Shown here one piece after another: positions 5,171-51,923 of a stretch of 54,353 bases of DNA (position 1 is its first letter; the number at the start of each line of letters is the position of its first letter). The position numbers were made by a program, and so were the translations under genes. The stretch comes from Bacteroidota bacterium (lineage in GTDB: Bacteria > Bacteroidota > Bacteroidia > Flavobacteriales_F > PHOS-HE28). Under the pieces are notes generated by a model. It was not told where the DNA came from, ran no database searches, and worked only from the letters and a program-made list of their open reading frames with translations. The DNA lies in contig JAFDZF010000064.1 in assembly GCA_018267055.1 (NCBI GenBank), positions 1-54,353 of the forward strand, in the 5' to 3' direction.

Positions 5171-5175
5171 CACCG

Positions 5176-9620: not shown

Positions 9621-9639
9621 TCCCCCTGCAAGCATCCGA

Positions 9640-10209: not shown

Positions 10210-10303
10210 GATCGGGGTCAAGACCCCAAGAAGCGGCGATTTCTTAACGGCCCACCGGGTATAGGTCGGCCGTGGAGGCCTGTCCAAGGGGGACGTGTCC
10301 GTC

Positions 10304-10311
10304 TATCTTGC
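10304..10311 (+). promoter_or_regulatory. Candidate -7 element of the cytochrome gene (TATCTTGC)
   Basis: Matches TAnnTT with a G at the seventh position, 16 bases before the ATG at 10328. It supports that start over an in-frame GTG at 10295, which would place this element inside the gene. Confidence 0.3.
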
Positions 10312-10327
10312 GGTACTTCGAACATCC

Positions 10328-12310
10328 ATGAAGCAGTCCTCGACCCTGATCATCCGTATCGGCGTACTGACGGTCCTCCTGGGCACCGTGATGGTGTTCG
10401 TGGGGTGGCGCCGGGGCACGCTCCCCGTGGCCCATGCCTACCATACCGAGCAGGAGCTGGCCGCTTTCCGGGGCGGAGCGGGGCAGCTGCCGCAGGAGCA
10501 GAACCACTACTTCATGGGCAGCGGCCGCTGCGAGGGCTGCCACGGGCACGACCCGGCCGCCCATGCCATGATCACGCAGGACGGCGTGGACGTGAACGTG
10601 GTGGACGACTGGCGTAGCAGCATGATGGCCAACAGCGCGCACGACCCCTTCTGGCGCGCCAAGGTGAGCCATGAGGTGCAGGTGAACCCCGGGCACCGCG
10701 GCGCGCTCGAGGACAAGTGCACCAGCTGCCATGCCCCGGCGGGCCGCTATGACTTCCACCTGAGCGGCCAGGGGGCGTACGGCATCTCCGACCTGGAGCA
10801 GGACCCCATCGGGCGCGATGGCGTCACCTGCGTGCCCTGCCACATCCAAAGCGCCGACAGCATCGGCCTGCACTTCTCGGGCAAGCTGAAGCTCGACACC
10901 CTGGGCCGGCCGCTCTACGGGCCGTTCGACGACATCTTCGGCTCGCCCATGACCAGCTTCGTGGGCTATGAGCCGCAGTACGGGGCGCACATCCTGGACG
11001 CGGGGCTTTGCGCGGGCTGCCACACCCTGCTCACGGAGACCGCCGACCTGGCCGGCAACCTCACCGGCGGCCACTTCGTGGAACAGGCCACCTACCACGA
11101 GTGGCTCAACTCGGACTTCAATACCGATGAACATCCCGAGGCGGGCATCACCTGCCAGGGCTGCCACATGCCGCTGCTGAACGACGATGTGGGCGTGGTG
11201 CTCTCGGCCAACTACATCTTCCTGCAGCCCAAGTCGCCGTTCGGGCAGCACCACTTCGCCGGGGCGAACACCTTCATGCTGCGGATGCTGAAGGACAACA
11301 TCGCTTCCCTGGGCCTTACCGCCGAGCCCCAGCACTTCGACAGCACCATCGCCCGCACGGACCGCATGCTGCAGCAGCACTCGCTGCTGGTGGAGGCCTC
11401 CGTGCCCGACCGCAGCGCCGACACGGCCTTCATCGATGTGAAACTGACCGACCTGGCCGGCCACAAGTTCCCCAGCGGCTACCCCAGCCGCCGTGCCTGG
11501 GTGCAGCTGGTGGTGACCAACGCCTCCGATGAGATCCTCTACAACAACGGGGACTGGGACGGCAACTACGAGGTGATCGGCCACGACGCCGAATGGGAGC
11601 CCCACCACGACGTGATCACCAGCGCCGACCAGGTGCAGATCTACGAGATGGTGATGGGCGATGTGAACGGCAACAAGACCACCGTGTTGGAGCGCGCCGC
11701 TGCGCCCCTGAAGGACAACCGCCTGGCACCGGCCGGCTTCACCTCCACGCACTACACCTACGACACCACGGTGGTGGCCGGGGTGCCCGTCTCCGACATC
11801 GATTTCAACCGCGACGGCGACGGGGTGGAGGGGAGCGGCACCGACATCGTGCACTACCACGTGCCCATGAACGGGTACACGGGGCTCATCCACGTCCGCG
11901 CCAAGGTGTGGTACCAGAGCGCCCCGGCCCGCTGGATGCAGGAGATGTTCACGCACAGCACGGACGAGATCGACCTGTTCCGCGACCTGTTCGCCGCGGC
12001 GGACCATACGCCCGTGCTGGTGCAGCAGGACAGCCTGAACGACCTCAGCACGGCCGTGGACGACCTGCGTGAGCTCGGCGTGCGCGTGTTCCCCAACCCC
12101 GTCCAGAACGGCGTGCTCACCGTGGTGGGCCTGGACGAGCGGGTGCTGGAGGTGCAGGTGTACGATGCGGCGGGCCGCTCGGTCGCCTCGCACGGGCCGT
12201 TCCGCCAGCCGCAATGGACCGTGGCCCTGCCCCGGACCGGCGCCACCTATATCGTTTCGATCCGCACGGCCCACCGCACCTTCGTGGAGCGGGTGGTCGC
12301 TTTACGATAG
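10328..12310 (+). CDS. Pentaheme cytochrome c with T9SS type A sorting domain
   Basis: A 660-residue exported multiheme cytochrome. An N-terminal hydrophobic signal or anchor (about 5-30) is followed by five CxxCH heme sites: CEGCH (68), CTSCH (131), CVPCH (168), CAGCH (228) and CQGCH (276). The heme part resembles the cytochrome c554/NapC-related multiheme proteins of Bacteroidota. Residues about 350-570 are beta-rich. The C-terminus from VRVFPNPVQNGVLTVVG to the end is a T9SS type A sorting domain, so the protein is predicted to cross the outer membrane and stay on the cell surface or be released. Heme attachment would happen in the periplasm before T9SS export. The electron partner is unknown; a cupredoxin with the same tail lies 2.2 kb away. 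Confidence 0.87.
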   Translation: MKQSSTLIIRIGVLTVLLGTVMVFVGWRRGTLPVAHAYHTEQELAAFRGGAGQLPQEQNHYFMGSGRCEGCHGHDPAAHAMITQDGVDVNVVDDWRSSMMANSAHDPFWRAKVSHEVQVNPGHRGALEDKCTSCHAPAGRYDFHLSGQGAYGISDLEQDPIGRDGVTCVPCHIQSADSIGLHFSGKLKLDTLGRPLYGPFDDIFGSPMTSFVGYEPQYGAHILDAGLCAGCHTLLTETADLAGNLTGGHFVEQATYHEWLNSDFNTDEHPEAGITCQGCHMPLLNDDVGVVLSANYIFLQPKSPFGQHHFAGANTFMLRMLKDNIASLGLTAEPQHFDSTIARTDRMLQQHSLLVEASVPDRSADTAFIDVKLTDLAGHKFPSGYPSRRAWVQLVVTNASDEILYNNGDWDGNYEVIGHDAEWEPHHDVITSADQVQIYEMVMGDVNGNKTTVLERAAAPLKDNRLAPAGFTSTHYTYDTTVVAGVPVSDIDFNRDGDGVEGSGTDIVHYHVPMNGYTGLIHVRAKVWYQSAPARWMQEMFTHSTDEIDLFRDLFAAADHTPVLVQQDSLNDLSTAVDDLRELGVRVFPNPVQNGVLTVVGLDERVLEVQVYDAAGRSVASHGPFRQPQWTVALPRTGATYIVSIRTAHRTFVERVVALR

Positions 12311-12361
12311 TGCTCCATGTCATGACCATGTCGAACGGTCTCGTCCCACCCACCCAGGACC

Positions 12362-13270
12362 ATGAAAGCTTTCGTAGCCCGCAACCCCGTATTGACGTTC
12401 GTACTGCTGACCCTCGGCCTGCAGTTCACCATCGTCGGCATCGTCTACGTCCTCCTGCCTCCCGGTGAGCACCTGGGGATGCATCCCCAGCTCAAGATGC
12501 TCTTCCGCCTGCGGGTGTTCGGCCCGCTGCTCTTCAGCGTGGGCATCACGGCCTGGCTGGAAGGAAAGGCCGGCCTGCGCAACCTCTTCGGCTCCTTCCT
12601 GCATTGGCGGGTGCCCGTAGGCTGGTACGGCGTCGCCTTCATCTGGAAGTTCCTCTTCGCCTACCTGGGCATCGGCGCGGTGATCGTGCTGCTGGGCCAC
12701 TGGCCGGCCGTGGGCTTCGTGGTGCCGGGCTTCCTGGAAGGCTGGGTGCTGAACTTCCCCTTCATCGTGGGCATCGCCTTCGTGGAGGAGACCTCGTGGA
12801 TGAAGTTCTGCCTCACCCGCCTGCAGATGAAGTACACCGCCTTCGTCAGCGTGCTAATCCTCGGCAACTGTTGGGGCATGTGGTACCTGCCCATGGTGAT
12901 CATCCACGAGGGCGTGCCCCCGGGCTACCCCATCCCGGTGTTCCATGGCTGCATGCTGGCGCTGACCATCCTGCTCGCCTGGGCCTACAACAGCACCCGC
13001 AGCGGCACCGTGCTGCTGACGATGCAGATCGTGAGCAACACCGCCTTCTTCATCGTGCCCGTGCTGCCGGAGGTCACCAAGGACCCCAGCTACGTCACCG
13101 GCTTCAGCCTCGTGTTCATGGCCATGGCCGTCCTCATCGTGCTGGTGTACGGCACGAAGGACCTGGCCCGCCGGCCGCGTGCCCGCTGGGACGAGGACCT
13201 GGAGGCCGACACGCCCGAGGAAGGGGGAGGACCGGCCGTGGTGCCGGATCCCGTGCCGGTGCGATCCTGA
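12362..13270 (+). CDS. CPBP (Abi/CAAX-like) family membrane protein
   Basis: A 302-residue inner-membrane protein with about eight hydrophobic segments. It resembles CPBP intramembrane glutamic metalloproteases (Abi/Rce1 relatives). VEETSWMKFCLTRL at about residue 143 corresponds to the first motif, with the paired catalytic Glu, and GNCWGMWYLP at about 167 to the second. In most family members the second motif has His where this protein has Tyr (WY instead of WH), so proteolytic activity is doubtful. The C-terminal 40 residues are a charged, Pro-rich cytoplasmic tail. The gap to the cytochrome gene is 51 bases, so cotranscription is possible. Substrate unknown. Confidence 0.75.
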   Translation: MKAFVARNPVLTFVLLTLGLQFTIVGIVYVLLPPGEHLGMHPQLKMLFRLRVFGPLLFSVGITAWLEGKAGLRNLFGSFLHWRVPVGWYGVAFIWKFLFAYLGIGAVIVLLGHWPAVGFVVPGFLEGWVLNFPFIVGIAFVEETSWMKFCLTRLQMKYTAFVSVLILGNCWGMWYLPMVIIHEGVPPGYPIPVFHGCMLALTILLAWAYNSTRSGTVLLTMQIVSNTAFFIVPVLPEVTKDPSYVTGFSLVFMAMAVLIVLVYGTKDLARRPRARWDEDLEADTPEEGGGPAVVPDPVPVRS

Positions 13271-13324
13271 GGAAAGCCTGCGTTCCGGCCTGCCGGGGCG
13301 CCCGGACCCGTGCCCGTGGCGCAC

Positions 13325-13332
13325 TACCTTGT
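13325..13332 (+). promoter_or_regulatory. Candidate -7 element of the M28 peptidase gene (TACCTTGT)
   Basis: Matches TAnnTTTG at six of eight positions. It ends 4 bases before the ATG at 13337, consistent with a leaderless transcript. Confidence 0.25.
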
Positions 13333-13336
13333 CCAC

Positions 13337-14554
13337 ATGAGGCTTCCCTTGCGCGCCCTCGTGGGCCTTGCGTTCGCGGTCACCGCCCGCGTGCAGGCCC
13401 AGCATCCCGTGGTCCAGGCCCTGGTGGACGCGGTGGACATCGATTCGCTCGTGTGGGACCTGGAGCGTTTGTCGGGCCAGGAGCCCGTGGACGTGGGGGC
13501 CGGTGACCAGCTGATCCTCTCGCGGCACAAGTCCAACCCCGGCAATGCCCTGGCGGCGGACTGGCTGCAGCAGCGGTTGGCGGCCTACGGCTACACGCCC
13601 GTGGTGCAGCCTTTCGGGGGGACGGGCGAGAACATCCTGGCCGTGAAGCCGGGCGCCGTGCATCCCGAGCGGAAGGTGGTGGTGTGCGGGCACTACGACG
13701 CCATGCCCGGCGGGCCCGTGAACGCGCCGGCCGCGGACGACGACGGCAGCGGCAGCTGCGCCGTGCTGGAGGCCGCCCGCCTGATGGCCCCCTACACCTT
13801 CGAGAACACCATCGTGTTCGCGCTCTGGGATGAAGAGGAACAGGGCCTGGTGGGGAGCCACTATTACGCAGGAGCGGCCGCTGCCAGCGACGAGCCTATC
13901 GTGGGGGCCGTGAACATGGACGCCATCGCCTACGATGGGGATGGGGACGGCCTGCTGCGGATCCACGCCCGGAACACCGGCAACAGCCTGGCGATCAAGG
14001 ATACCGCCCTCCTGGTGAACAGCGTTTACGGCCTGGACCTCAACATCGCCGTCAACAACCCCGGTGCCACCTACAGCGACCACGCGTCCTTCTGGACCGA
14101 AGGCTATGGCGCCATCCTCATCATCGAGGACTTCGACAACGACGGCAACCCGCACTACCACACGCCCACCGACCTGCTGGAGCACCTGGACCTGGCCTAC
14201 TGGCGCAGTCTGACCCAGCTGGGCGTGGGCACCACGGCGGCGCTGGCCATCCCGTACGATAATGCCACGGCGGTGGCGCATCCCGCACGGCCGCGATCGG
14301 AGGGGCTGGAGGTGCATCCCAACCCGGTGGCCGGCACATCGCAGGTGCGCTGCACCCTGGAAAGCACCGCTCCGGTGCGGCTTTCGGTGGTGGATGCGGT
14401 GGGACGGGAGGTCCTGCTGCTGCACGAAGGCCTGCTTGCGCGGGGCAGGCAGGCCTTCGATCTGGATGCCCGCGGGCTGGTGCCCGGGGCCTATGTGGTG
14501 CGGTGGGCCAGCGGCGACGAGCTGCGCACGGTCCGTATCGTCCGCGCGCCCTAG
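13337..14554 (+). CDS. Secreted M28-family zinc peptidase with T9SS type A tail
   Basis: A 405-residue exported aminopeptidase-like enzyme. The signal peptide (1-21, ending VQAQ) is followed by an M28 domain. Visible zinc ligands and catalytic residues are His119 (VVCGHYDAMPGG), the bridging Asp in PAADDDGSGSC, the catalytic Glu pair in WDEEEQGLVGS, the Asp in VNMDAIAYDGD and the His in NPHYHTPTD. From about residue 325, LEVHPNPVAGTSQVRCTL begins a type A sorting domain, so it should be exported by T9SS to the surface. It probably trims peptides outside the cell; specificity cannot be read. The start at 13337 gives the signal peptide. The stop overlaps the convergent cupredoxin stop by 4 bases. 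Confidence 0.88.
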   Translation: MRLPLRALVGLAFAVTARVQAQHPVVQALVDAVDIDSLVWDLERLSGQEPVDVGAGDQLILSRHKSNPGNALAADWLQQRLAAYGYTPVVQPFGGTGENILAVKPGAVHPERKVVVCGHYDAMPGGPVNAPAADDDGSGSCAVLEAARLMAPYTFENTIVFALWDEEEQGLVGSHYYAGAAAASDEPIVGAVNMDAIAYDGDGDGLLRIHARNTGNSLAIKDTALLVNSVYGLDLNIAVNNPGATYSDHASFWTEGYGAILIIEDFDNDGNPHYHTPTDLLEHLDLAYWRSLTQLGVGTTAALAIPYDNATAVAHPARPRSEGLEVHPNPVAGTSQVRCTLESTAPVRLSVVDAVGREVLLLHEGLLARGRQAFDLDARGLVPGAYVVRWASGDELRTVRIVRAP

Positions 14555-28959: not shown

Positions 28960-30615
28960 TCAATGCTGGATGATGATCGGGCGCGCAAGGCGGCGTCCTT
29001 CATGGGAAAGCTCGAGCAAGTATCCTCCATCCGGCAGCATTCCCGTCCCAATGGTGAAAGCCCTGCTCGTGCCAGGGGTAAGAACACCCCCTCCCATGGC
29101 CCGGCCCACCATATCGGTGATACGCCATGAACATATGGTGGGCCAGCCGTCCGGTGGAATGGCGGTCAATCGGTCATCGGCAGGGATGGGATGGACAGCC
29201 CAAACGGAGGAAGCCAGCTCGGTTACCCCTACATCGGAGTGCATTTCAAGCAACAGGGTATCGATACACTCGTCGCTGGTGTGCACAAGCTTGATCGAGC
29301 CGTTGGCGGGCAATGACCAGAGAACGGTGACCTCGGGAGTTCCTTGACCATTCGAGATGCTACCACCTTCCACGCTCCAGATAAAGACGCCGTCCGTCCA
29401 AGGGATGGAGTAGCTCTCCAGGGCTCCCACGATCGGATGGATGTTCCCTTCGATAATAGGTGGAATGGTGACATCGATCGCCATATCCGAGGAGAACGAA
29501 CAGCCGAATTCATCAATGACGGTGAGCACGTAAATGGAAGGGTCATGCAACGGGCCTGAACAGATCGAAGTGCACAGCTCGTTCGTGCTCAGGATGGAAG
29601 GGCCGCTCCATGAAATGGAGTCACAACCGCTCCCAAGAGAAGGTGCGATGGAGATCGGGAGCGAACTCGGGGCCGCTGGCCCATCGATGAAGTTCAGCTG
29701 CCAAGCGCAGAGGAAGCCGTTATCCGCTCCCCAGAGATCCGAAAATGCGATCGTCCACGTGCCATTGAGGGGGCACCCGAGTAGATTCGAGAACGCCCTG
29801 TCACTCTGATAGGTCCCGCTGGGCAAGGTGCCTCCTGTTGCATTGTCCACCCATGTGCCGTTCATGGTTGTCGGGCTCCAGCAATAGTGCCAGCATATTC
29901 CCGGAACAGGAGCCCCTTCGTCCCAGTCGTTCGGTGAACCGAGATACGTGCTTCCACCACCTTGCTCATGAAGCATCATGGATTGACCGTTCGGGCATTG
30001 CATCGTGACCACGAAATCCCCTAGATAGGAGTGTTCCATGTCCACGCATATCGAGGCGATCCGACCGGTATCAGCCAGAAGCTCGCCCTCTTCGAACTGA
30101 TTGATCTCCAATGCGAAGGATGAGACATGTGGGAAATCCTCCAGCGGCCCAGCCAGCATACTGTTCGTCCAAAGGGTGTCCGCCAATGCGGACTGCGACA
30201 GACAAACGGATCCTCCCTGGCAGATGCTTGTATCGGTCGCCACGAGTGTGATCCGGGGTGGGGCAGCTACTTGTACCATGACCGTCAGGGAGTCGGCACA
30301 ACCCATATCGGTCGTTACGACGAGCATAAGAAGGTGCCCCCCGGGCGCATCCCACACATGTTGCATTATGCTGCCGTTCGCGAGAGTGACCGGTCCGCTC
30401 TTCCACGTGTATGACACTATCGATGCGCCGTCCGCTGTGGTCGAACTGCTTCCATCATAAGTGCTTATCACTCCAGGGCAGGCGTATAGAAAGCCGTTCG
30501 AGACGCCTCCAATGGATGCAGTAGGCAGGGGACATTCACCTTGCGCTCTCGCATTGCTCGTGATGAGTTGGAGCGACAATAGGACAAGCGGAACGGCGTG
30601 GTCGAAAAGGCGCAT
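28960..30615 (-). CDS. T9SS type A cargo with proprotein-convertase P-domain
   Basis: A 551-residue exported protein. Signal peptide 1-25 (ending SNARAQ), a PKD-like domain (about 26-125), then a P-domain module: ICVDMEHSYLGDFVVTMQC through GTWTIAFSDLWGADNGF (about 195-320). A second PKD-like region and a short type A T9SS tail (VHPIPADDRLTAIPPDG onward) complete it. P-domains usually accompany subtilisin-like proteases; no protease domain is present here. It has the same P-domain module as the next two genes upstream. GC content is clearly lower than its neighbours (about 48-57% in sampled 60-base rows). The start at 30615 gives the signal peptide; the frame extends to 30705 with residues that do not look secretory. 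Confidence 0.82.
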   Translation of the reverse strand: MRLFDHAVPLVLLSLQLITSNARAQGECPLPTASIGGVSNGFLYACPGVISTYDGSSSTTADGASIVSYTWKSGPVTLANGSIMQHVWDAPGGHLLMLVVTTDMGCADSLTVMVQVAAPPRITLVATDTSICQGGSVCLSQSALADTLWTNSMLAGPLEDFPHVSSFALEINQFEEGELLADTGRIASICVDMEHSYLGDFVVTMQCPNGQSMMLHEQGGGSTYLGSPNDWDEGAPVPGICWHYCWSPTTMNGTWVDNATGGTLPSGTYQSDRAFSNLLGCPLNGTWTIAFSDLWGADNGFLCAWQLNFIDGPAAPSSLPISIAPSLGSGCDSISWSGPSILSTNELCTSICSGPLHDPSIYVLTVIDEFGCSFSSDMAIDVTIPPIIEGNIHPIVGALESYSIPWTDGVFIWSVEGGSISNGQGTPEVTVLWSLPANGSIKLVHTSDECIDTLLLEMHSDVGVTELASSVWAVHPIPADDRLTAIPPDGWPTICSWRITDMVGRAMGGGVLTPGTSRAFTIGTGMLPDGGYLLELSHEGRRLARPIIIQH

Positions 30616-30633
30616 TTGGAATGCTTGAAGCGC

Positions 30634-30641
30634 CGAAAGTA
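30634..30641 (-). promoter_or_regulatory. Candidate -7 element of the 551-residue P-domain gene (TACTTTCG)
   Basis: On the minus strand this is a match to TAnnTTCG, 18 bases before the ATG at 30615. It suggests the gene has its own promoter within the 126-base gap. Confidence 0.4.
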
Positions 30642-30693
30642 GGCGTCCCTGTCGCCTTGCTCTTGTGTGGGAGGCGACGTTCTCGACCGTACA

Positions 30694-30719
30694 CAGAAGC
30701 TCCATGCCTGGGGCTTCTG
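30694..30719 (-). terminator. Possible weak hairpin after the 1108-residue cargo gene
   Basis: Inverted repeat CAGAAGC / GCTTCTG with an inner CCA/TGG pairing, located 23 bases after the upstream gene's stop on the minus strand. It has no U-run, so termination is doubtful. Confidence 0.25.
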
Positions 30720-30741
30720 CCGTTCCGTCCGGATATCCCGC

Positions 30742-33700
30742 TCAGCGCACAAGCGTCACGTGCCCGAGGTATTCCTTCTCTTCCGCGGTGAGCGAGCTGC
30801 GGCAGCGCATGCGCATGGCATAGGTGCCGATGGGCAGGGGTTTGCCGCCCTGGTTGCGGTAGGTGCCGTTCCAGCCGATCGTGGGGTCGTTGGTCTCGAA
30901 CACCACCTCGCCCCAGCGGTCGAAGATCTGCCACTCCACGTCGGTGATCTCCGAGGTGTTGTGCACCAGGTACAGCACGTCGTTGGTGCCGTTGCCGTCG
31001 GGCGTGAAGGCGTTCGGGATGTAGGTGGTCAACGCGTCGTGCACCACCAGGTCCTGGCACAGCGTGTCGGCGCACAGGTTCTCGTCATAGGCGATCAGGC
31101 AGATGGGGTAGGTGCCGCCGTACTTGTACGGGAACCCGAACCCCGGTGTCACCTCGTCCGAGGCCCCCAGCTCCCCGAAGGTCCAGAAGTAGCGGGTGGC
31201 GTTGGCCGAGGTGTTGTAGAAGGTCACGAACGGCGCGTCCGTCATCACCGGGTCCGGCTGCCAGCCGAAGCCGGCCACCACCTGCGGCGGCTCCTGCACC
31301 ACGATGTACGAGCGGCCCACGCAGCCGTCGATGTTCTTGATGGCCACGCTGTAGCCGCCTGCGCACGCGCTGTCCAGCATGCTTTCCGGCCCGTAGTGCG
31401 CCCCGCCGTCGAAGCTGTACGCGATGGCCTCCGCATCCCGGAGGTAGGCCGCCCCGTCGCAATAGCCGTAGCAGGTGGTCGTCACGGACCACACCGAATC
31501 GATGGTCAGCAGTGGCGGCTCACCGATCGTGAACGCGGCCGAGTCCGCGCAGCCATTGGCGTCCGTCACCACGAGCGTGTAGGCGCCCGCGCAGATGGCG
31601 GGGGCCACCGCATCGCCGGTACCGGCGATGCCGCCGGACCAGGTGTACACGAAGCCGGACGGCGCGATGCCCCCGGTCACCGTGGCCTGGGCCGTGCCGT
31701 CGCAGGCCTCGAAGCAGATCGCATCCGTCAGCGCCAGGTCGACGGCCACCGGCTGCGTCAATGTCACCTGCACGCTGTCCCAGAGGTCGCAGGCCACGCC
31801 GTCGTTCTCATGCCAGTAGAACAGGTACGTGCCCGTCTGCGGAACCGTCACGGTGGCCTGCGGGTCGGCGGTATTGCTGAACACCGCGCCGGCGGGCCCC
31901 ACCCATTCGCCCATGCCGGGATAGGCCGTCATGGCGCGCAGGGGATAGCTCAGCGTGCACACCAGCGTGTCCGGCCCGGCATCGATCAGGCCGCAGCAGC
32001 TCGGGTCGGTCAGGGGCAGGATCGCGATCGCCAGCTCCGCGGCGCCCACGCATCCGTTGGGGCTGGTGATGGTGTAGGTGAAGGTGTCAGGCGAGGCCGT
32101 GAGCGGGTGGAACGAGCCGTCCACCACGTTTCCGGCGCCGTCGGTCCATACGCCACCGGGCGCCGGGTCACCGCCCAGCATATCGATGAGCTGGAAGGCC
32201 GGCGCGCTGGCGCATACCACGATGGACGTATCCTGGCCCGGCTGCACCGCGGGGTCCAGGTGGACGGTCACGCTGTCGGTCGTGGCGCATTCCGGGAAGC
32301 CGCTCGGGAAGGCATGCACGGTGTACAGCGTGGTGTTGTCCACCTGCGCCGTGGGGTTGGGGATGTTCGGGTTCGACAGCCCCTCGGCCGGTGTCCATTG
32401 GTAGGTGATGCCGCCGACCCCCGTGCTGGCGTTCAGCTGCACCGCGTTGTTGCAGATCGTCTGGTCGGGGCCCGCTTGCACCGGGATGGGCGGGTCCACC
32501 GTCACGGTGATGGTGGTGTCGTAGGCGCAGCCGAAGTTGTCCAGCACCGAGAGGGTGTAGCTATAGTCGCCCGGGGCGCTTGGCGTGGCATGGGCGATGA
32601 GCGGGTTGTTCGGGTCGCTCTGCACCGCGGGTCCCGACCAGCTGACGGAATCGCTGTACGCCGTCCCGATGCTCGGTGTGAATTGTGTGATGTCGGGGAT
32701 GATGGACGGGTCGAAATCGATCTCCCACGAACAGAGGAAACCGTCATCCGCCCCCCAGAAATCGCAGACCTGGAAGGTCCAGCTGCCGTTCAACGGGCAG
32801 CCCACCAGCGCGCTCATCGGGTTGAGGCTCGCATAGTCGCCCGGTGGAAGCACTGCGCCGCCCGCGTTCTGTACCCAGGTCCCGTTCGTCGCGGTCGGTG
32901 TCCAGCAATAGTTCAGGCATTCGCCCGGCGTCGGCGGGTCGGTCTCGCCGTCCAGCGCATTGCCGATGAAGGTGCCACCGCCGCCCTGTTGGTGGAAGAT
33001 GACGGATTGGTTGTTGGGGCAGCTCAGGGAGATCACCAGGTCGCCCATGAACGAATGTTCCATGCTCACGCACACGCCCAGCAGGTCATTGACGTTGGTC
33101 AGCGTCTGGCCGGGGTCGAACTGGGTGAAGTCGAGCGAGCTGGTGAAGCAGGCCCCCACGTCATCGGGCAGGTACACGCCGTCGCCGTAGTTGGCTTCCG
33201 GTATGCCGGTCCAGGTCACCGGGGTCACCACCCCGGTGAGGTCCACCTCCGCGCCATAGCAGACATGGGAGATGTTCGCGGTACCGGCGAAGGACGGCGT
33301 GGTGCTCACCAGCACCTGCAGGTCCACCACGTTGATGCTGTGGCAGTCGTTGTCGTCCGTGAGGTAGAGCTGCACCAGGTATTCGCCGGCCGCAGCGAAC
33401 GTGTGGCTCGTGAGCGGGCCGCTGGTGCTGTCCATGGAGCCGTCGTCGAAGTCCCACTTGTACTGCGCGATGTTGAAGCCCGCTGCCGCATGCGAGAGCG
33501 AGCCGTCGAAGTACACGGTCTCGCCCACGCAGATCCGCGCGGGCACCGGCTCGGACATGGTGGCCACCGCCGTGGGCGGCTCGCAGGGCGTGAAGCAGCT
33601 GATGGAGGCGGCGAAGATGCCCGTGCCGTTCGCGTTCGAGGTGAACTGCACCGTGAGGCAGCCCGAGGTGTTGAAGGCCGTGGCCGTGGCCACCAGCCCC

Positions 33701-34068
33701 TGCAGCTCCGTGCCCGTGTAGAAGCCCAGCGAGGGCGATGCGGTGCTGGGGCCATCGAAGATCGCCAGGCGGTCGATCGGGTTGGGACCCTGCGTGGACA
33801 GGTTGAACGTGATGAAATTCAGCGAGATGGCGTCCCCCGGCACGTCCGGGCAGATGGTCGCCGTGATGTTCTCATTGTTGCTGTAACCGCCGCCGCCCTG
33901 GCCGCCGCTGTCCAGCAAGGCGCCCGAACAGGCGGTGATGGTGCCCTCGGTGATCGGATGGGCCTGGCCGGCCGCCGTGCCGATGCCGGCCGTGGCGATC
34001 GCCAGGAGGCACGCCGATCGCAGGAGGCTCAGGGAACGCGTGGGAATAGCGGAGTAGTTAGGGGCCAA
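30742..34068 (-). CDS. T9SS type B cargo: CUB, PKD, P-domain, SprB-like repeat
   Basis: A 1108-residue modular surface protein. After a signal peptide (about 1-35) come a CUB-like domain (YSNNENITATICPDV to LAIFDGPSTASPS), a PKD domain (KWDFDDGSMDSTSGPLTSHTF), the P-domain module (CVSMEHSFMGDLVISLSCP to CDFWGADDGFLCSWEIDF) and Ig/PKD units. A SprB-like repeat (DAICFEACDGTAQATVTGG) and a final PKD follow, then the type B T9SS domain (YIPNAFTPDGNGTND, FDRWGEVVFETNDPTIGWNG). It probably acts as an adhesin or surface scaffold. No ATG precedes the signal peptide; translation seems to start at a TTG (34068). It follows the 1120-residue paralogue by 33 bases, so both are likely one operon. Confidence 0.88.
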   Translation of the reverse strand: MAPNYSAIPTRSLSLLRSACLLAIATAGIGTAAGQAHPITEGTITACSGALLDSGGQGGGGYSNNENITATICPDVPGDAISLNFITFNLSTQGPNPIDRLAIFDGPSTASPSLGFYTGTELQGLVATATAFNTSGCLTVQFTSNANGTGIFAASISCFTPCEPPTAVATMSEPVPARICVGETVYFDGSLSHAAAGFNIAQYKWDFDDGSMDSTSGPLTSHTFAAAGEYLVQLYLTDDNDCHSINVVDLQVLVSTTPSFAGTANISHVCYGAEVDLTGVVTPVTWTGIPEANYGDGVYLPDDVGACFTSSLDFTQFDPGQTLTNVNDLLGVCVSMEHSFMGDLVISLSCPNNQSVIFHQQGGGGTFIGNALDGETDPPTPGECLNYCWTPTATNGTWVQNAGGAVLPPGDYASLNPMSALVGCPLNGSWTFQVCDFWGADDGFLCSWEIDFDPSIIPDITQFTPSIGTAYSDSVSWSGPAVQSDPNNPLIAHATPSAPGDYSYTLSVLDNFGCAYDTTITVTVDPPIPVQAGPDQTICNNAVQLNASTGVGGITYQWTPAEGLSNPNIPNPTAQVDNTTLYTVHAFPSGFPECATTDSVTVHLDPAVQPGQDTSIVVCASAPAFQLIDMLGGDPAPGGVWTDGAGNVVDGSFHPLTASPDTFTYTITSPNGCVGAAELAIAILPLTDPSCCGLIDAGPDTLVCTLSYPLRAMTAYPGMGEWVGPAGAVFSNTADPQATVTVPQTGTYLFYWHENDGVACDLWDSVQVTLTQPVAVDLALTDAICFEACDGTAQATVTGGIAPSGFVYTWSGGIAGTGDAVAPAICAGAYTLVVTDANGCADSAAFTIGEPPLLTIDSVWSVTTTCYGYCDGAAYLRDAEAIAYSFDGGAHYGPESMLDSACAGGYSVAIKNIDGCVGRSYIVVQEPPQVVAGFGWQPDPVMTDAPFVTFYNTSANATRYFWTFGELGASDEVTPGFGFPYKYGGTYPICLIAYDENLCADTLCQDLVVHDALTTYIPNAFTPDGNGTNDVLYLVHNTSEITDVEWQIFDRWGEVVFETNDPTIGWNGTYRNQGGKPLPIGTYAMRMRCRSSLTAEEKEYLGHVTLVR

Positions 34069-34101
34069 GGGGATCGTGGGGATAGGGGAGGATATGGAGG
34101 A

Positions 34102-37100
34102 CTAGCGGACCACGCTGACATGCCCGAGCATCTCGTGGTCGTTCTGCGTATAGGCGGAGCGGGCTTTCAGTTTCCAGACATAGACGCCGTTCTTGACCAC
34201 CGAGCCGCCCAGGCGGCCGTCCCAGGGTTTGGTGGGGTCGTTCGTGGCGAAGATCTCCTTGCCCCACCGGTCGAAGATGCGCAGGTCGAACCCGGCCTTC
34301 ATGTCGATGTCGTTGCCTTGGACGAAGAAGAAGTCGTTCAATCCGTCACCGTCCGGCGTGAACGCATTGGGTGTGAACACCAGGAACTGGTCGTGGATCT
34401 CCACCAGCCGCATCACGCTGTCCGCGCAGCCCAGGTAGTTCTCCACGCGCAGGGTCACCGGGTACACGCCGCCCACGTCCTCCGGGAAGGTGTGGACGGC
34501 GGTGGGACCGCTCGCAGTATCCGCTCCGGCGAACTGCCATTGGTAGTCCACCGCCCAGGGCCCGGCCTGCTCGGTGAAGGTCAGCGTGGGGGCCAGCACC
34601 GAGGCCGGGTTCGGGCTCCAGGTGAACTCCGCCTTCGGGATCGGCACCACGCGGATCATGTTGTCCGCCACCGTGGTGTCGTTGCAGCCATTGGGCCAAT
34701 GCACGATGGCCGTCACGTCGTAGTAGCCGCTCAGCGAATAGATGAAGTCGCGGATCGGCCCGGCCAGCACCGAGGCGTCCGTGCCGAAGTTCCAGTCCAC
34801 CGTGGCGCCGCCCGTGGTGTCCTTCACCGTGAAGGTCACGTGGAAGGGCGCGCAGCCCAGGACCGTGTCGGCGCTCAGCTCCAGCACCGGGATCGGCAGC
34901 ACATCGAAGTAGGTGCACAGCGGCAAGGCGGGCGTTTCGCAACCGTCCGTCAGCGTCACGCAGATGTTCTGCGAGGCCGTGAGGTTCACCGTCCGCACCG
35001 TGTCCGGCGAAGGGCCGGACCCCCAGTCGAACGCGTAGGCCCCGTCACCGCCGGAAGCCAGGTTGGCGAACAGCTGGGTGTCCACTTCGGGGCATACCAC
35101 CAGTGTGTCCGGCAGGATGAAGGCCAGCGGTCCGCGCACGTTCACGGTGGCCTCCAGCGTGTCGGAGGGGCAGTTGTTCGCGTCCGATACGCTCACTACG
35201 TACACGGTGGTGTCCAGCGGGGAGACCATCTGGAAGCCGCCCGGCGGAAGGGCGTTGTTCCAGTTCAACTGCAGGGGCTCCGTCCCTCCGATGGCCGATG
35301 CCGTCAGCGTGGCCAGGCCGGTCAGGCAGATCGTGGTGTCGTTGCTCAGCGAGACCATCTGGAGCAGGTCCGGCTGGATGATCTCGGCCATTAGGCTGTC
35401 CTTGCAGTTGTTGCCGTTCGGGCCTTCCTTGATGATCGCCTTGTAGAGGCCGGCCGGGCCCGTGAAGCTGTCGCCCAGGGCCCCGAGCGTGGTCTGCACC
35501 ACGTTGCCGTACGCATCCTTCCACGTGTAGTCCCAGGGCCCGCCGGTGCCGGTGGTGATCACCTGCACCGTGCCATCGATACCGTAGCACAGCGGGTGGA
35601 CGATCAGGCTGTCGTCCGCCAGGGTGGTCAAAGGGTTCACCCGCACGCTGTCCACCATCCCGCATTCCGGATGCCCGGCGGGGAACGCATGCAGCCTGTA
35701 CCACGTGGGCACGGGCGGGTTGGCGATGGGGAAGGCGCTGTTCGGGTTCGAGAGGCCGGCGGCCGGGCTCCAGTTGTAGGTGATGGCGCCCTGGGGCATG
35801 GGCGGCGTGAAGTGGATGCCGAGCTGGATGGGGTTGCCGCACACCGCCGGAGGCGCCGCGGTGGCCTCGAAGACCGCCCCGGGCGTCACGGTGAGATGGA
35901 AGGTGGTATCATAAGTGCAGCCGAAATTGTCGGTCACGGTATACACATAATCATAGGTGCCATATGTGTCCGGCGTAGCGGTCACCACGTTGCAGGCCGG
36001 TCCGGGGTTCGAGATGAAGGGACCGCTCCAGTGGCTGCTATCGCAATCCGATCCTACCGTAGGCGTGAACTCGATCACATCCGGGTAAAGTGCCGGATTG
36101 ATATCCATCGATACGTTGAACACAACGCCATCGTCGATGCAGAGTTGGTCCAGAACGCTCACGGTCCATGTGCCGTTCAGGTTGCACCCGTCCCACACAC
36201 TAAAAGGATCCTGGGGGGTATAGGTGCCCGGGGCCATGCTGTTGCCCGGGGGATCGCCAGCAGTTACCCAGTTGCCGTTCTGGTTCTCATCGGTGATGGT
36301 GCCCCATGTGGCCGAAGGCGTGAAGCAATACTGGAACCCGGTCCCGGGAATACCGGTGGAATTATCCAAGGGAGACCCGAGGTATGTACCTCCTCCTCCA
36401 TTGTTGTAGCCATCGAACAATACGGCACTCGCTCCGTCCGGACACTGGAGCGAGACCGTGAGGTCACCGAGGTAGGAATGCTCCATTGTGATGCAGACCT
36501 GCAGGATATCCGTGTTGCCATTGACGGTCGTGCCTGCCGGGAAGCCGGATACATTGAGCGCCGATGTGTACAAGGCATCATCGGGACAGGCATCCGGGAG
36601 CACAAAAACCCCGGAGATCAAAGGCTCGGGGACGCTCGACCAAAGGGAGCCCTCGACCGAGCCGGTGAGCGTGACAGTGCTTCCGTCGCAGATCGTGTTC
36701 GCGCTGAAGCCTGTGCCCGTGTAGTCGGGATAGGTACCCACGCGCACCAGTTCAGCGCTGCTGTTCGTGCTCATACACCCGATATCGTCGGTCACCACCA
36801 GCAATATCGGGAACTGCCCCGGGGTCGGCACGGGCAGCAGTACGGTCGGATCGGTCGCGAACGTGGTGACCCCAGCTATCGTCCAGGCATAGCTGATCAG
36901 CGTGCGTCCTGGTGCAGGATAGGAGCCCCCCCCGTTGATCAGGAGCGTATCGTAGGGACATACCTTGTAGGGGCTTTCCGGAAATGGCGGGAAGTAGGCG
37001 GTCGGCTGAGGACAGGGGTTCGTGCATTGGATCAGGGCGGTCCAGCCGCTGGCCACTCCTGAGCCGTTGGAGATGAATTGTATGGTGATGCATCCACCGC

Positions 37101-37464
37101 TGTTCTGGGCGGTCCATAGGGTCCCGGATAGCGCGGTAGCCGAAGTGGTCAATACCGGCGAACTGGTGTTCGGGCCATCATAGATCGTCAGCAGGTCGCC
37201 ATTGACGATCGTCACATCATTGAACCCGATCTGGATACTGTCCCCGAGGTTGCCGGGACAAAAGGTGATGGTGTGGCTCTCGTTGTTCGAATAGGTGCCG
37301 TTAGGTCCACCGCTGTCGTAGAACAAGGCGTTGCAGTATACCTGTGTTCCCCCTTCGGAGATGAGCACCTCCGGGGTTTGGGCCTGGAGGTGAAGGGTCG
37401 GCACGGCGACCAGGAGCAGTACCCGTGCGGAAGCGAAGATTGGCGTTGTGCGATCCGCGAACAT
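34102..37464 (-). CDS. T9SS type B cargo: CUB, PKD, P-domain, SprB-like repeat (paralogue)
   Basis: A 1120-residue paralogue of the downstream gene. Signal peptide 1-28 (ending HLQAQ), CUB-like domain (TYSNNESHTITFCPG to LLTIYDGPNTSSP), PKD-like domain, P-domain module (CITMEHSYLGDLTVSLQCP to WTVSVLDQLCIDDG), an Ig/PKD unit, SprB-like and PKD repeats, and the type B tail (FTPNAFTPDGDGLND, IFDRWGKEIFATNDPTKPWD). Base composition changes sharply near 35,880: the part encoding the N-terminal half has about 48-63% GC in sampled rows, the C-terminal half above 70%. The start at 37464 is the only ATG giving the signal peptide. Upstream, GAAATTCG at 37502-37509 is one base off the -7 form. Surface adhesin or matrix protein by inference. 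Confidence 0.88.
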   Translation of the reverse strand: MFADRTTPIFASARVLLLVAVPTLHLQAQTPEVLISEGGTQVYCNALFYDSGGPNGTYSNNESHTITFCPGNLGDSIQIGFNDVTIVNGDLLTIYDGPNTSSPVLTTSATALSGTLWTAQNSGGCITIQFISNGSGVASGWTALIQCTNPCPQPTAYFPPFPESPYKVCPYDTLLINGGGSYPAPGRTLISYAWTIAGVTTFATDPTVLLPVPTPGQFPILLVVTDDIGCMSTNSSAELVRVGTYPDYTGTGFSANTICDGSTVTLTGSVEGSLWSSVPEPLISGVFVLPDACPDDALYTSALNVSGFPAGTTVNGNTDILQVCITMEHSYLGDLTVSLQCPDGASAVLFDGYNNGGGGTYLGSPLDNSTGIPGTGFQYCFTPSATWGTITDENQNGNWVTAGDPPGNSMAPGTYTPQDPFSVWDGCNLNGTWTVSVLDQLCIDDGVVFNVSMDINPALYPDVIEFTPTVGSDCDSSHWSGPFISNPGPACNVVTATPDTYGTYDYVYTVTDNFGCTYDTTFHLTVTPGAVFEATAAPPAVCGNPIQLGIHFTPPMPQGAITYNWSPAAGLSNPNSAFPIANPPVPTWYRLHAFPAGHPECGMVDSVRVNPLTTLADDSLIVHPLCYGIDGTVQVITTGTGGPWDYTWKDAYGNVVQTTLGALGDSFTGPAGLYKAIIKEGPNGNNCKDSLMAEIIQPDLLQMVSLSNDTTICLTGLATLTASAIGGTEPLQLNWNNALPPGGFQMVSPLDTTVYVVSVSDANNCPSDTLEATVNVRGPLAFILPDTLVVCPEVDTQLFANLASGGDGAYAFDWGSGPSPDTVRTVNLTASQNICVTLTDGCETPALPLCTYFDVLPIPVLELSADTVLGCAPFHVTFTVKDTTGGATVDWNFGTDASVLAGPIRDFIYSLSGYYDVTAIVHWPNGCNDTTVADNMIRVVPIPKAEFTWSPNPASVLAPTLTFTEQAGPWAVDYQWQFAGADTASGPTAVHTFPEDVGGVYPVTLRVENYLGCADSVMRLVEIHDQFLVFTPNAFTPDGDGLNDFFFVQGNDIDMKAGFDLRIFDRWGKEIFATNDPTKPWDGRLGGSVVKNGVYVWKLKARSAYTQNDHEMLGHVSVVR

Positions 37465-37576
37465 TGCTTGGGAGACGTATCGGAAGAGGCATCCGGTGCC
37501 CCGAATTTCCGAAGCGGTCCACGTCTTTCCAGCCCTCCCTTCACGGATCCTTGGAACGCTTGGGCCTCAAGCAAAA

Positions 37577-37599
37577 GACCCCGGCCGAAGGCCGGGGTC
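37577..37599 (-). terminator. Terminator of the sigma factor operon
   Basis: A 10-bp perfect stem (GACCCCGGCC / GGCCGGGGTC) capped on the minus strand by C(TTCG)G, followed by TTTTGCTTG. It lies 25 bases after the stop of the PKD membrane protein gene and separates the sigma operon from the cargo genes. Confidence 0.85.
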
Positions 37600-37623
37600 C
37601 AAGGAGTTCGCGGAACGGTCGTC

Positions 37624-38895
37624 CTAACGGGTCAATTTCACCTTGCCGGTGTAGGTCTCGGCCAGGTGCAGGCTCTCGCTCACATCGGCCACCCAGACGT
37701 ACTCGCCGGCGGGGCACAGTTCGCCCTCGTTGCGGGGGCGTCCGGTCCAGGGCTTGGTGGCGTCGCTGGTCTCGTACACGAGGCTGCCGTTCGGGTCGTA
37801 GATGGCCAGGTGGAACTTCACCCCCAGGGTGCGCAGCGCCTCGGGCATGAAGGTCTCCTGTGAGCCATCGCCGTTCGGGGAGAGCACGGTGGGGGCGTCC
37901 AGGTTGTAGTCCCGGTCGATCCGCACTTCCTTCAGGCTCTTGTCCACGCAGCCCAGCTCGCTCGTCACCGTCAGCTCCACCTGGTAGATGCCCTTCTTCT
38001 TGTAGATGTGGTCGGGGTGGGCGATGGCGCTGGTGGCCCCGTCGCCGAAGTCCCAGTGGTAGGTCTTCGCGCCCAGCGTGCGGTTCTCGAAGTGCACCGA
38101 CGGGATGTGGCCCTCGAACTCCTGTTTCATGGGGTTGAAGGCGGCCCGCGGGGCCTCGTGGATCACGATCATGTCGCTGCTGGGCTTGTTGTGGATGGTG
38201 CCCACGCCCGTGGACGACATGGAGAGCATCACCTGGTAGTTGCCCGGCTTGCTGTAGGTGTGTTCGGGGTTCGGCTTGTTGCTGAAGCTGCCGTCGCCGA
38301 AGTTCCAGAGGTAGATGCCGTCTTCGGGCATGCGCTCCACCTTGAACTCCACAGGGGTACCGGGGCAGCCTTCGCTCACGCTGGAGCGGAAGGCGGCGTC
38401 GGAGCTGACCGAGGGGCCGGGGGAGGCCGGGGTCGGTTCGGCCGGCCGGGTCGGGGCGGTGACGCGGGCCTTCACCTCGGCCGGGGCCTTGCGGGTCTCC
38501 TGCACGGGGGACGCCTCGGCGGGCGTGGCGGCGTAGATGCCGCCCGTGCTCGGACGGTCCACTGCCGTGCCGGGCGTGCCGCCCACCGGTGCCACAGCGG
38601 CCACGGTCCGGTCGGTATCGGTATCGGCCGGTACGGCGGCCGGTGTGCCGTTGCTCAGGTCGGTCTCGGGGGTCTTGTCGCGCACCAGGAGGTAGGCCGT
38701 GGTGCCGACCAGCAGCGCACCGCCCACCAAGGCGGCCAGGAGCCCGATGCGGACACCTCCCCAACTGCGCACGCCGCCGGCCAGTGTGCGCTCCATCTGG
38801 GCCCAATCGGCCGAGTTGTAAGGCACCTCGAACTGCTCGAGGCTCTCTTTCACCCGCCGCTCGAAGAGGTCCAGGTCGTTCTTGCTTTCTGCCAT
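37624..38895 (-). CDS. Single-pass membrane PKD protein with T9SS-like C-terminal domain, putative anti-sigma sensor
   Basis: A 423-residue protein. Residues 1-47 are cytoplasmic (LDLFERRVKESLEQFEVPYN, then SADWAQMERTLAG), followed by one membrane helix (IGLLAALVGGALLVGTTAYLLV, about 49-70). A Thr/Pro/Ala-rich linker reaches about residue 165. Two PKD domains follow (YLWNFGDGSFSNKPNPEHTY; YHWDFGDGATSAIAHPDHIY). The last 90 residues (VLSPNGDGSQETF, IYDPNGSLVYETSDATKPWT, KVKLTR) resemble the type B T9SS domain of the cargo genes. The gene begins 3 bases after the ECF sigma stop, so an anti-sigma role for the short cytoplasmic part is inferred; no known anti-sigma domain is recognised. The terminal domain is probably periplasmic here. 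Confidence 0.78.
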   Translation of the reverse strand: MAESKNDLDLFERRVKESLEQFEVPYNSADWAQMERTLAGGVRSWGGVRIGLLAALVGGALLVGTTAYLLVRDKTPETDLSNGTPAAVPADTDTDRTVAAVAPVGGTPGTAVDRPSTGGIYAATPAEASPVQETRKAPAEVKARVTAPTRPAEPTPASPGPSVSSDAAFRSSVSEGCPGTPVEFKVERMPEDGIYLWNFGDGSFSNKPNPEHTYSKPGNYQVMLSMSSTGVGTIHNKPSSDMIVIHEAPRAAFNPMKQEFEGHIPSVHFENRTLGAKTYHWDFGDGATSAIAHPDHIYKKKGIYQVELTVTSELGCVDKSLKEVRIDRDYNLDAPTVLSPNGDGSQETFMPEALRTLGVKFHLAIYDPNGSLVYETSDATKPWTGRPRNEGELCPAGEYVWVADVSESLHLAETYTGKVKLTR

Positions 38896-38898: not shown

Positions 38899-39534
38899 TC
38901 AGGGAAGCTTGTGCTCCTTTTTAAGCAGTTTCCTCAGATTATGTTTCGCCTTGGCCAAGTTGCTCTTCGAGGTCCCGATGTTGATGCCCAGCGAATCGGC
39001 GATCTCCTTGTGCGTCATCTCCTCGAAGACGTACAGGTTGAAGACCGTCCGGTAGGCCGGGGTCAGTTTCTGCATGGCATTGATCACGTCGGCGGGCTTC
39101 AGGTCCAGCTCCTCCATGCTCTCCTCGTCCTGGAGGGTGTCCTCCTCGTCCTGGTCGCCGAAATCCTCGATGCTCCGCTCTTCGCCAAGAAGCAGGTAGG
39201 CGTTCTTGGCGCGCCGGAAATAGTCGATGGCCGTGTTCACCATGATCCGGCGGATCCAGCCCTCGAAGCTGCCCGCGCGGTTGAACTTGTCCATGCTGCG
39301 GAACACCTTGATGAACCCGTCCTGCAGGATGTCCTTGGCTTGGTCGTGGTTCTTGGTGTAGCGCAGGCATACGGCCATCATCTTCCCATAGAAGAGCTCA
39401 TAGACGCGCTGTTGGCTCCGGCGTTCCCCCGCGATGCATCCATCGATCAATCGCGCGAACGCCTGCTCCACCGCCTCCATGCCCTGCCATGTAGGGTCCA
39501 GACGTAGGTTCTCGGCCAAGGTTGCCAATTCCAT
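38899..39534 (-). CDS. ECF RNA polymerase sigma factor
   Basis: A 211-residue sigma-70 family protein of the extracytoplasmic-function type. Region 2 (YELFYGKMMAVCLRYTKNHD through GWIRRIMVNTAIDYFRR, about residues 45-105) binds core polymerase and the -10 element. Region 4 (LTPAYRTVFNLYVFEEMTHK then EIADSLGINIGTSKSNLAKA, about 155-205) has the helix-turn-helix. The acidic linker between them (EDFGDQDEEDTLQDEESMEE) is unusually long. There is no region 1 or 3. The next gene on the strand starts 3 bases later and encodes a single-pass membrane protein likely to control it. Divergent from mdh. The start at 39534 is the first ATG after the intergenic region; TATCTTAC at 39559-39566 is a weak -7-like match. 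Confidence 0.92.
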   Translation of the reverse strand: MELATLAENLRLDPTWQGMEAVEQAFARLIDGCIAGERRSQQRVYELFYGKMMAVCLRYTKNHDQAKDILQDGFIKVFRSMDKFNRAGSFEGWIRRIMVNTAIDYFRRAKNAYLLLGEERSIEDFGDQDEEDTLQDEESMEELDLKPADVINAMQKLTPAYRTVFNLYVFEEMTHKEIADSLGINIGTSKSNLAKAKHNLRKLLKKEHKLP

Positions 39535-49907: not shown

Positions 49908-51923
49908 ATGATGAGCATGAGGAAGTTCCTGGCCGGCCTGACCTTGAGCATGTTGTGCACGACCGTGGCGATGGCGCAAGGAAAGGACGCCAAAGAGGCG
50001 GACGACGCGTTCAACAAAGGCCTGTACTTCAACGCCATCGAGCTCTACAAGAAGGCGTACACCACCGAGAAGAAGGCCAGCGAGAAGGCGGTGCTCATCT
50101 TCAAGGTGGGCGAGGCCTACCGGGCCTTGGGCGACGCCCAGAACGCCCAGGTGTGGTACGAGAAGGCGAACAAGGCCCAGTACCCCGATCCCATCACCTA
50201 CTACTACATCGGCGAAGCGCTCAAGGAGCAAGGCAAGTACGCCGAAGCCATCGCCGCCTACAACAAGTACAAGGAGAAGAACCCCGGTGACGCCCGCGCC
50301 GACGCCAGCCTGGCCGCCTGCCAGCTCGCCCAGACCTGGAAGGACGCCCCCGCCCGCTACAAGGTGGACCCCGAGGTGCTGCTGAACTCGCCCCAGTACG
50401 ACTTCAGCCCCGCTTTCTCGGACAAGAAGAACACCGACCTGGTCTTCGCCAGCAGCCGCACGGCCAGCACCGGCACCGAGACCGACGGCATCGCCGGGGA
50501 AAGCTTCACCGACCTCTTCGCCAGCAGCCGCGACAAGCTCGGCAAGTGGAGCGAGCCCGTGAAGCTGCCGCCCAGCATCGACTCGCCCGGCCATGAGGGC
50601 GGCCCCACCTTCAACGCCAAGCGCACGGTGATGTACTTCACCCGCTGCCCGCACGAGAAGAAGAAGGCCTTCGGCTGCGACATCTGGATGACCAAGAAGG
50701 TCGGCAACAACTACAGCGAGCCCGAGATGCTGAACCTGCGCCCGCAGCAGGAGAAGAACGACACGAACGTGATCACCATCGGCCAGCCCACGCTGAGCAA
50801 GGACGACGGCTTCATGCTCTTCAGCAGCAACATGAAGGGCGGCCGCGGCGGCAAGGACATCTGGATGGTGAAGCTGGACAAGGACGGCAAGCCCACCGGC
50901 ACGGCCACCAACCTCGGCAACGAGGTGAACACGCCGAAGGACGACATGTTCCCCTTCCTGCGCGCCAACGGCAACCTGTACTTCGCCAGCGACGGCCACC
51001 CCGGCATGGGCGGCCTGGACATCTTCCTGGCCGAGAAGACCGGCGATGCCAGCTGGGGCCATGTGGAGAACCTGAAGTCCCCCCTCAACAGCAGCGGCGA
51101 CGACTTCAGCATCATCTTCGACGGTGACGAGGAGCGCGGCTACTTCACCAGCAACCGCCCCGGCGGCAAGGGCCAGGACGACATCTGGCGCTTCTACATG
51201 CCGGCGCTGGAGTTCGCGCTGCAGGGCGTGGCCTACGACAAGGAGACCGGCGCGCCCCTGCCCGACACCAAGATCGAAGTGGTGGGCACCGACGGTTCCA
51301 ACTTCTCCGCCCTCACCGATGGCAATGGGGGCTTCAACTTCGCGGAGAACAACAAGGACCGGTACATCAAGGAGAACACCAGCTACACCATCCGCGCCAG
51401 CAAGGAGAAATACCTCGTGGTGAACGACCAGATCACCACCGTGGGCCTCAACGAGAGCACCACCTTCGTGAAGGAATACTTCCTGCAGCCCATCAAGGAC
51501 AAGGGCATCCCCCTGCCGCAGGTGCTGTACGAGGTGGACAAGTTCGAGCTGACCCAGGCCGGCAAGGACTCGCTGGAGACCCTGTACAACACGCTGGTGG
51601 AGAACCCGACCATCGTGATCGAACTGCGCTCGCACACCGATTCCCGCAAGACCACGCGTTACAAGGGCGGGAACCTGGAGCTGTCGCAGAAGCGCGCCCA
51701 GAGCTGCGTGAACTACCTGGTGAGCAAGGGCATCGACCCTGTGCGGATGATCCCGGTGGGCCGTGGGGCGGAAGAGCCCCTGATCACCGACGCGGAGATC
51801 GCCAAGATGGCCACCAAGGAAGAGAAGGAGGCCGCCCACCAGAAGAACCGCCGCACGGACTTCAAGGTGATCCGTTTCGACTACGTGCCGAAGGACACCA
51901 ACGCTCCGACGCCGAACAACTAG
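49908..51923 (+). CDS. OmpA-family protein with TPR, PD40 propeller and CRD domains (PorE-like)
   Basis: A 671-residue exported protein with the four-domain order of PorE (PG1058), a T9SS-linked protein of Porphyromonas. TPR units come first (EADDAFNKGLYFNAIELYKK, about 28-140), then PD40/WD40-like propeller blades (DLVFASSRTAS, TVMYFTRCPHEKKKAFGCDI, GYFTSNRPGGKGQDDIW). A carboxypeptidase-regulatory-like domain (LQGVAYDKETGAPLPDTKIE, about 440-530) and a C-terminal OmpA domain follow (YEVDKFELTQAGKDSLETL; IELRSHTDSRKTTR; LSQKRAQSCVNYL) with the Asp/Arg that bind peptidoglycan. Unlike PorE it has a plain signal peptide (AMAQ) rather than a lipobox. Other OmpA proteins of the same order exist in Bacteroidota, so T9SS membership is uncertain. 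ATGs at 49908, 49911 and 49917 are possible starts. Confidence 0.82.
   Translation: MMSMRKFLAGLTLSMLCTTVAMAQGKDAKEADDAFNKGLYFNAIELYKKAYTTEKKASEKAVLIFKVGEAYRALGDAQNAQVWYEKANKAQYPDPITYYYIGEALKEQGKYAEAIAAYNKYKEKNPGDARADASLAACQLAQTWKDAPARYKVDPEVLLNSPQYDFSPAFSDKKNTDLVFASSRTASTGTETDGIAGESFTDLFASSRDKLGKWSEPVKLPPSIDSPGHEGGPTFNAKRTVMYFTRCPHEKKKAFGCDIWMTKKVGNNYSEPEMLNLRPQQEKNDTNVITIGQPTLSKDDGFMLFSSNMKGGRGGKDIWMVKLDKDGKPTGTATNLGNEVNTPKDDMFPFLRANGNLYFASDGHPGMGGLDIFLAEKTGDASWGHVENLKSPLNSSGDDFSIIFDGDEERGYFTSNRPGGKGQDDIWRFYMPALEFALQGVAYDKETGAPLPDTKIEVVGTDGSNFSALTDGNGGFNFAENNKDRYIKENTSYTIRASKEKYLVVNDQITTVGLNESTTFVKEYFLQPIKDKGIPLPQVLYEVDKFELTQAGKDSLETLYNTLVENPTIVIELRSHTDSRKTTRYKGGNLELSQKRAQSCVNYLVSKGIDPVRMIPVGRGAEEPLITDAEIAKMATKEEKEAAHQKNRRTDFKVIRFDYVPKDTNAPTPNN

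Follow-up and report, generated by a model that had tools for sequence, protein, structure and literature searches.

The question raised by this locus is why three neighbouring minus-strand genes share a module that resembles the P-domain of proprotein convertases when no protease accompanies it. The window (the whole stretch of DNA analysed here, 54,353 nucleotides of a Bacteroidota contig) carries the three genes, and the copies of the module within them, at the following positions.

28960 to 30705, minus strand: P0001, 581 aa; PKD, PKD with a predicted internal P-domain, short stalk, and a tail that is type A-like by eye; without a CUB domain.
30742 to 34068, minus strand: P0002, 1108 aa, TTG start; CUB, PKD, PKD with a predicted internal P-domain, Ig/PKD stalk, type B tail of the type IX secretion system (T9SS).
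34102 to 37464, minus strand: P0003, 1120 aa; signal peptide-like start, CUB-like domain, PKD, PKD with a predicted internal P-domain, Ig/PKD stalk, type B T9SS tail.
29437 to 30240, minus strand: shared module in P0001.
32473 to 33279, minus strand: shared module in P0002, a predicted split PKD with the P-domain inside, folded as model mddbd69bc8a41.
35857 to 36705, minus strand: shared module in P0003.

A sequence-only reading of this DNA had described the three neighbours as having a homologous module in common, and their likeness is far beyond chance: BLASTP aligned P0002 with P0003 over nearly the full length (32% identity, 1e-131), P0001 with P0002 over 358 aa (37% identity, 1e-66) and P0001 with P0003 over 403 aa (32% identity, 3e-42). 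The two conserved stretches that it had picked out are likewise seen in the translations, the first as MEHSYLGD in P0001 and P0003 and MEHSFMGD in P0002, and the WGAD-DGFLC region in two proteins as WGADNGFLC (P0001) and WGADDGFLC (P0002), with CIDDGVVF at that place in P0003. All three translations have hydrophobic N-termini by eye, which is how signal peptides were judged, and an internal ATG at 30618 likewise appears the likelier start of P0001.

Profile matches and a predicted fold indicate that the module is a true kexin/furin-type P-domain without a catalytic partner, as that reading had proposed from resemblance. The Pfam family P_proprotein (PF01483) was matched by all three window proteins above its cut-off of 21 (34.6, 26.5 and 25.4 bits) and, at E<=0.01, by 106 of 106 aligned modules, the window's three included. 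An AlphaFold model of the P0002 module (mean pLDDT 92.1) was compared with solved P-domains, and its residues 25-193 matched those of furin (Z 11.3 over 119 residues, 2.7 A), Kex2 (Z 11.1) and the Aeromonas sobria serine protease (3hjr; Z 8.5, 21% identity). A profile search of solved structures with the module found no P-domain by sequence. Matches to polyester hydrolases, which came from a single-sequence search of the PDB (E 0.004) and contained no individually significant stretch, were set aside as chance. The module thus has the fold and the profile family of the furin, Kex2 and A. sobria P-domains, but it lacks their catalytic domain and appears nested in a PKD domain rather than following a protease.

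A Pfam scan of P0001, P0002 and P0003 detected no peptidase domain, and none is included in the 15 families that 48 full-length members match at E<=0.001 (P_proprotein in 48, PKD_4 in 48, CHU_C in 44 and CUB in 15); specifically, no kexin/furin-type subtilisin-like catalytic domain precedes the P-domain in the window proteins or in these 48. Protease-free P-domains are not unusual in this genome, in which three more P-domain frames, one of which is truncated at the end of its contig, also have no protease by eye. Only one of these, on L006, matched the module profile (27 bits). It lies at 4597 to 6678 on the plus strand, has its P-domain near the N-terminus, not nested by eye, and resembles a CotH protein by eye.

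The surroundings of the P-domain are best defined in P0002.

33586 to 33951, minus strand: CUB domain of P0002; Z 16.2 to PCPE-1; Pfam CUB 17.6 bits, below the cut-off of 21.4.
33301 to 33585, minus strand: first PKD domain of P0002; Z 13.5 to the ColG PKD.
32701 to 33207, minus strand: P-domain of P0002 (module residues 25-193), delimited by fold alignment to furin and Kex2.
30745 to 31020, minus strand: type B T9SS tail of P0002; TIGR04131 48.3 bits (cut-off 35).
34108 to 34374, minus strand: type B T9SS tail of P0003; TIGR04131 46.1 bits (cut-off 35).

In the model of the N-terminal half of P0002 (pLDDT 91.9), a CUB domain is followed by a PKD domain. Because CUB and PKD structures filled the list when the whole 531-aa model was used for the fold search, the module was folded alone, and in that model the alignment to PKD structures spans residues 1-263 of the module but uses only about 76 of them (ColG PKD, Z 8.5, 2.1 A), the matching residues sitting on both sides of the P part. 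Because residues on both of its sides jointly align to PKD, the P-domain appears, in the model, to interrupt the second PKD of the head, entering that sandwich between early strands. The P-domain had previously been placed between PKD and CUB-like modules; its CUB and PKD neighbours are indeed there, but the models put it inside a PKD-like sandwich. The only invariant cysteines of the module, C7 and C251 (106 of 106 modules), have the P part between them, and a disulphide across the insertion probably staples the P-domain in the PKD. Other cysteine pairs covary within the P part (44-172, 121-183, 87-161 and 70-125) and within the second PKD part (209-226). For P0002, the joined PKD halves scored 16.8 bits in the Pfam PKD search, no better than the 17.3 bits of the second half by itself, and two other modules likewise showed no gain, so that the proposed nesting is supported by the models and the cysteines and not by sequence profiles.

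The predicted architecture is CUB-PKD-PKD[P]-Ig/PKD stalk-type B T9SS tail, where the brackets denote the P-domain within the second PKD. TIGR04131 was matched at E<=10 by 80 of 84 C-terminal tails, one of which belongs to the anti-sigma-like protein described below. The assignment of type B tails to two array members and a type A tail to the third holds on profile scores for P0002 and P0003, but the type A tail of P0001 was recognised only by eye, and at E<=10 its sequence matched no NCBIfam family, neither TIGR04131/CHU_C nor TIGR04183/Por_Secre_tail. Two relatives pass the type A cut-off (TIGR04183, 23 bits; L076 with 33.1 and L114 with 26.5 bits) and so indicate that the tail has been exchanged within the family; a third, L091, fails with 20.6 bits.

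We think it probable that the three genes encode paralogous T9SS cargo, namely adhesin-like surface or matrix proteins with a P-bearing head. At the N-terminus, a head composed of CUB-PKD-PKD[P] (P0002, P0003) or PKD-PKD[P] (P0001) would be carried on the Ig/PKD stalk, the type B tails would direct P0002 and P0003 to the cell surface by way of the type IX secretion system, and the PKD-inserted P-domain would be displayed as a rigid ligand-binding or protein-docking head. We infer surface display, adhesion and control by an adjacent ECF sigma pair.

A kexin-type P-domain is known to stabilise its catalytic domain, and the window proteins could instead be scaffolds that use the P-domain to dock an extracellular protease in trans, recruiting or stabilising a separate catalytic subunit as happens in cis in kexins. 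The P fold is of the kexin type, and of the 29 module positions with the same residue in 105 or more of the 106 modules, 19 lie inside the P part, both of which speak for such docking; nesting, however, may hide part of the furin-type interface, and we regard this alternative as unlikely. An equally unlikely alternative is that the proteins are not simple adhesins but help to build a large extracellular filament or contact device, in the manner of GhpA, the grappling-hook protein of Aureispira (9flp). GhpA has long PKD/Ig-like chains in common with the window proteins and is matched by the same profile (A3, 9.2e-57), and relatives at this locus are as long as 2799-3543 aa; but the match runs through PKD/Ig repeats, which are common, with no positive-scoring stretch over the P part, for which GhpA has no counterpart, and the three window proteins, at 581-1120 aa, are several times shorter than GhpA. 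Least likely are SprB-like gliding adhesins driven by the gliding motor, since the type B tail and multi-domain stalk that the window proteins share with SprB, whose tail is type B, and with other type B cargo (CHU_C, TIGR04131) are accompanied by a different head, CUB-PKD-PKD[P], by an SprB repeat that is weak and below its cut-off of 28 in P0002 (23.5 bits) and unlisted for P0001 and P0003 in the Pfam scan, and by the absence from the contig of a PorP/SprF partner gene, of which the genome has 13.

A profile built from the three window rows was matched at E<=0.001 by 74 of 98 genomes, and 42 of 45 genomes of the genus (its own included) matched better than 1e-80. A scan of GTDB genomes found 252 relatives, in Flavobacteriales or other Bacteroidota, from which 78 loci were kept, and phylum-wide, with up to 6 candidates scored per genome, at least 7 of 395 genomes matched at E<=1e-30, all of the same class. 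A paralogous, multi-copy family common to T9SS cargo with CUB and PKD domains had been expected, and this was borne out. Growth of the array by duplication at this site was not: in a tree of 73 modules, P0002 falls among genes that stand first or second in other arrays, with a best identity of 66%; P0003 joins three others, the nearest at 63% identity; and P0001 forms a long branch (1.46) whose highest identity, 48%, is to L129 in the third-gene clade. Because the P0002 module is closer to proteins of other species (up to 66% identity) than to its array neighbours (about 40%), the paralogues are old and do not reflect local expansion. At the same locus, relatives L125 and L126 have module genes of 2799 and 2917 aa, and L128 has a single module gene of 3543 aa (2800 to 13428, plus strand).

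Upstream of the array lie two further minus-strand genes and a terminator-like element.

38899 to 39534, minus strand: gene for an ECF sigma factor, immediately preceding the anti-sigma-like gene.
37624 to 38895, minus strand: anti-sigma-like membrane protein, in which a short, conserved N-terminus is followed by one TM helix (about residues 53-71), a variable linker and PKD-PKD-CHU_C.
37576 to 37600, minus strand: terminator-like hairpin of the intrinsic type, between the sigma pair and the array.

The C-terminus of the anti-sigma-like protein resembles that of T9SS cargo, scoring 44.2 bits against Pfam CHU_C (cut-off 27) and 29.3-32.9 bits against TIGR04131, under its cut-off of 35; its N-terminus matched no Pfam family. 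Across such proteins a hydrophobic segment begins at about residue 41-60, which points to a single-pass topology.

The neighbourhood scans covered chosen families, and the neighbourhood set consisted of the window and 15 loci fetched for holding module genes (16 in all, a chosen set). In 14 of these 16, the order is ECF sigma gene, anti-sigma-like gene, module genes; of the two exceptions, L129 is a short contig and L131 lacks the pair. The gene mdh is divergent beyond the sigma gene in 13 of the 14 loci with the pair, and gyrB stands at the far end in the window, L126 and L128, where it was found, most of the other loci ending before that point. Among 25 loci fetched for the anti-sigma-like protein, an ECF sigma gene lies directly upstream in all 23 that have an intact anti-sigma-like N-terminus (6 of them from the window's genus, the window included), the other two being cut (L138) or encoding a different protein (L153). 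The same arrangement was present in 20 of 20 larger loci, mostly from the same genomes as the 25, and the next downstream gene was type B-tailed in 13 of the 18 larger loci that could be assessed (L183, one of the 13, belongs to the genus), but not in L173 or L184-L187; L172 and L175 were left unjudged at contig ends. Because this genome has 64 CHU_C matches, chance adjacency of the pair and type B genes should be rare. The sigma factor and the cargo-tailed membrane protein are a class-wide pair, usually found beside type B cargo genes. In G104, from another family, three cargo genes follow the pair, one lacking the module and two carrying it, and in G024, of the genus, the pair precedes a type B gene of 1501 aa that lacks the module.

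Transcription of all five genes as a single operon was considered and rejected, because a terminator-like hairpin parts the pair from the array in 12 of the 14 loci, the window included, with a predicted energy of -20 to -27 kcal/mol and a T-run about 20 nt past the anti-sigma-like gene; of the two exceptions, L128 is without the hairpin and L130 without the T-run. After the hairpin, a GCAAC element is present in 11 of 13 loci, followed 18 nt on by RTCA in most, the window and L130 excepted. Just before the sigma gene, the motif GGCATCCYTT-N11/12-CGTC occurs in 11 of 14 loci and is missing from the window, L128 and L130. A scan of 20 chosen genomes found 20 sites in 13 genomes, versus 2 for a reversed control; 11 of these sites had defined the motif and 9 were new, and 12 lie before the sigma gene. 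Of the other 8, four precede genes for secreted proteins, two an epimerase gene and two a CBS-nucleotidyltransferase-like gene, all of these genes being named by eye; the epimerase gene is the same in L202 and L215, as is the CBS-nucleotidyltransferase-like gene in L207 and L213. The genome of the window has no site for this sigma-type promoter motif, and within the window it is gene order alone that suggests a link between sigma gene and array.

We tentatively propose, as a possibility with somewhat less than even prospects, that the pair acts as a switch based on mimicry of cargo, in which a putative membrane anti-sigma factor would hold the ECF sigma factor while its periplasmic PKD-PKD-CHU_C part, resembling the end of type B cargo, would compete with true cargo for the secretion machinery, report secretion load or capacity and so tune expression of the adjacent adhesin genes. 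In Clostridium thermocellum, the outer part of RsgI anti-sigma factors resembles domains of secreted enzymes. The pair may be likened to RsgI, described as a membrane anti-sigma factor whose outer part senses for the secreted system under its control; unlike RsgI, the window pair has an ECF sigma factor, a Gram-negative envelope and an outer part that mimics a T9SS tail, and its anti-sigma role is putative. A precedent for a protein with a T9SS tail acting on an ECF sigma factor is the PorA-PorXY-SigP pathway of Porphyromonas gingivalis, in which a T9SS C-terminal domain protein acts upstream of the ECF sigma factor (PMC7712824). PorA is itself a surface protein acting via a two-component system, whereas in the window a membrane protein encoded beside the sigma gene carries the tail.

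In the open-licence literature, we found nothing linking the proprotein convertase P-domain to type IX secretion, nothing joining an anti-sigma factor with PKD domains in Bacteroidetes or a sigma factor with both PKD and gliding motility-associated C-terminal domains, nothing tying the Aureispira grappling hook to type IX secretion, and nothing on a P-domain/CUB/PKD family of T9SS cargo. The array offers a concrete example of a P-domain that stands without its protease and is apparently built into another domain, and with it a testable statement about stand-alone P-domains. Our analysis also points out a conserved pair, a sigma factor and a membrane protein with a cargo-like tail, next to adhesin-like T9SS genes; if the pair is indeed a sensor of secretion load, the coupling of surface-protein synthesis to T9SS capacity in Bacteroidota would become directly testable. 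Elsewhere in the window, a plus-strand gene at 49908 to 51923 encodes an OmpA, WD40-like, TPR and carboxypeptidase-regulatory-like protein, which we take to have the architecture of the T9SS protein PorE.
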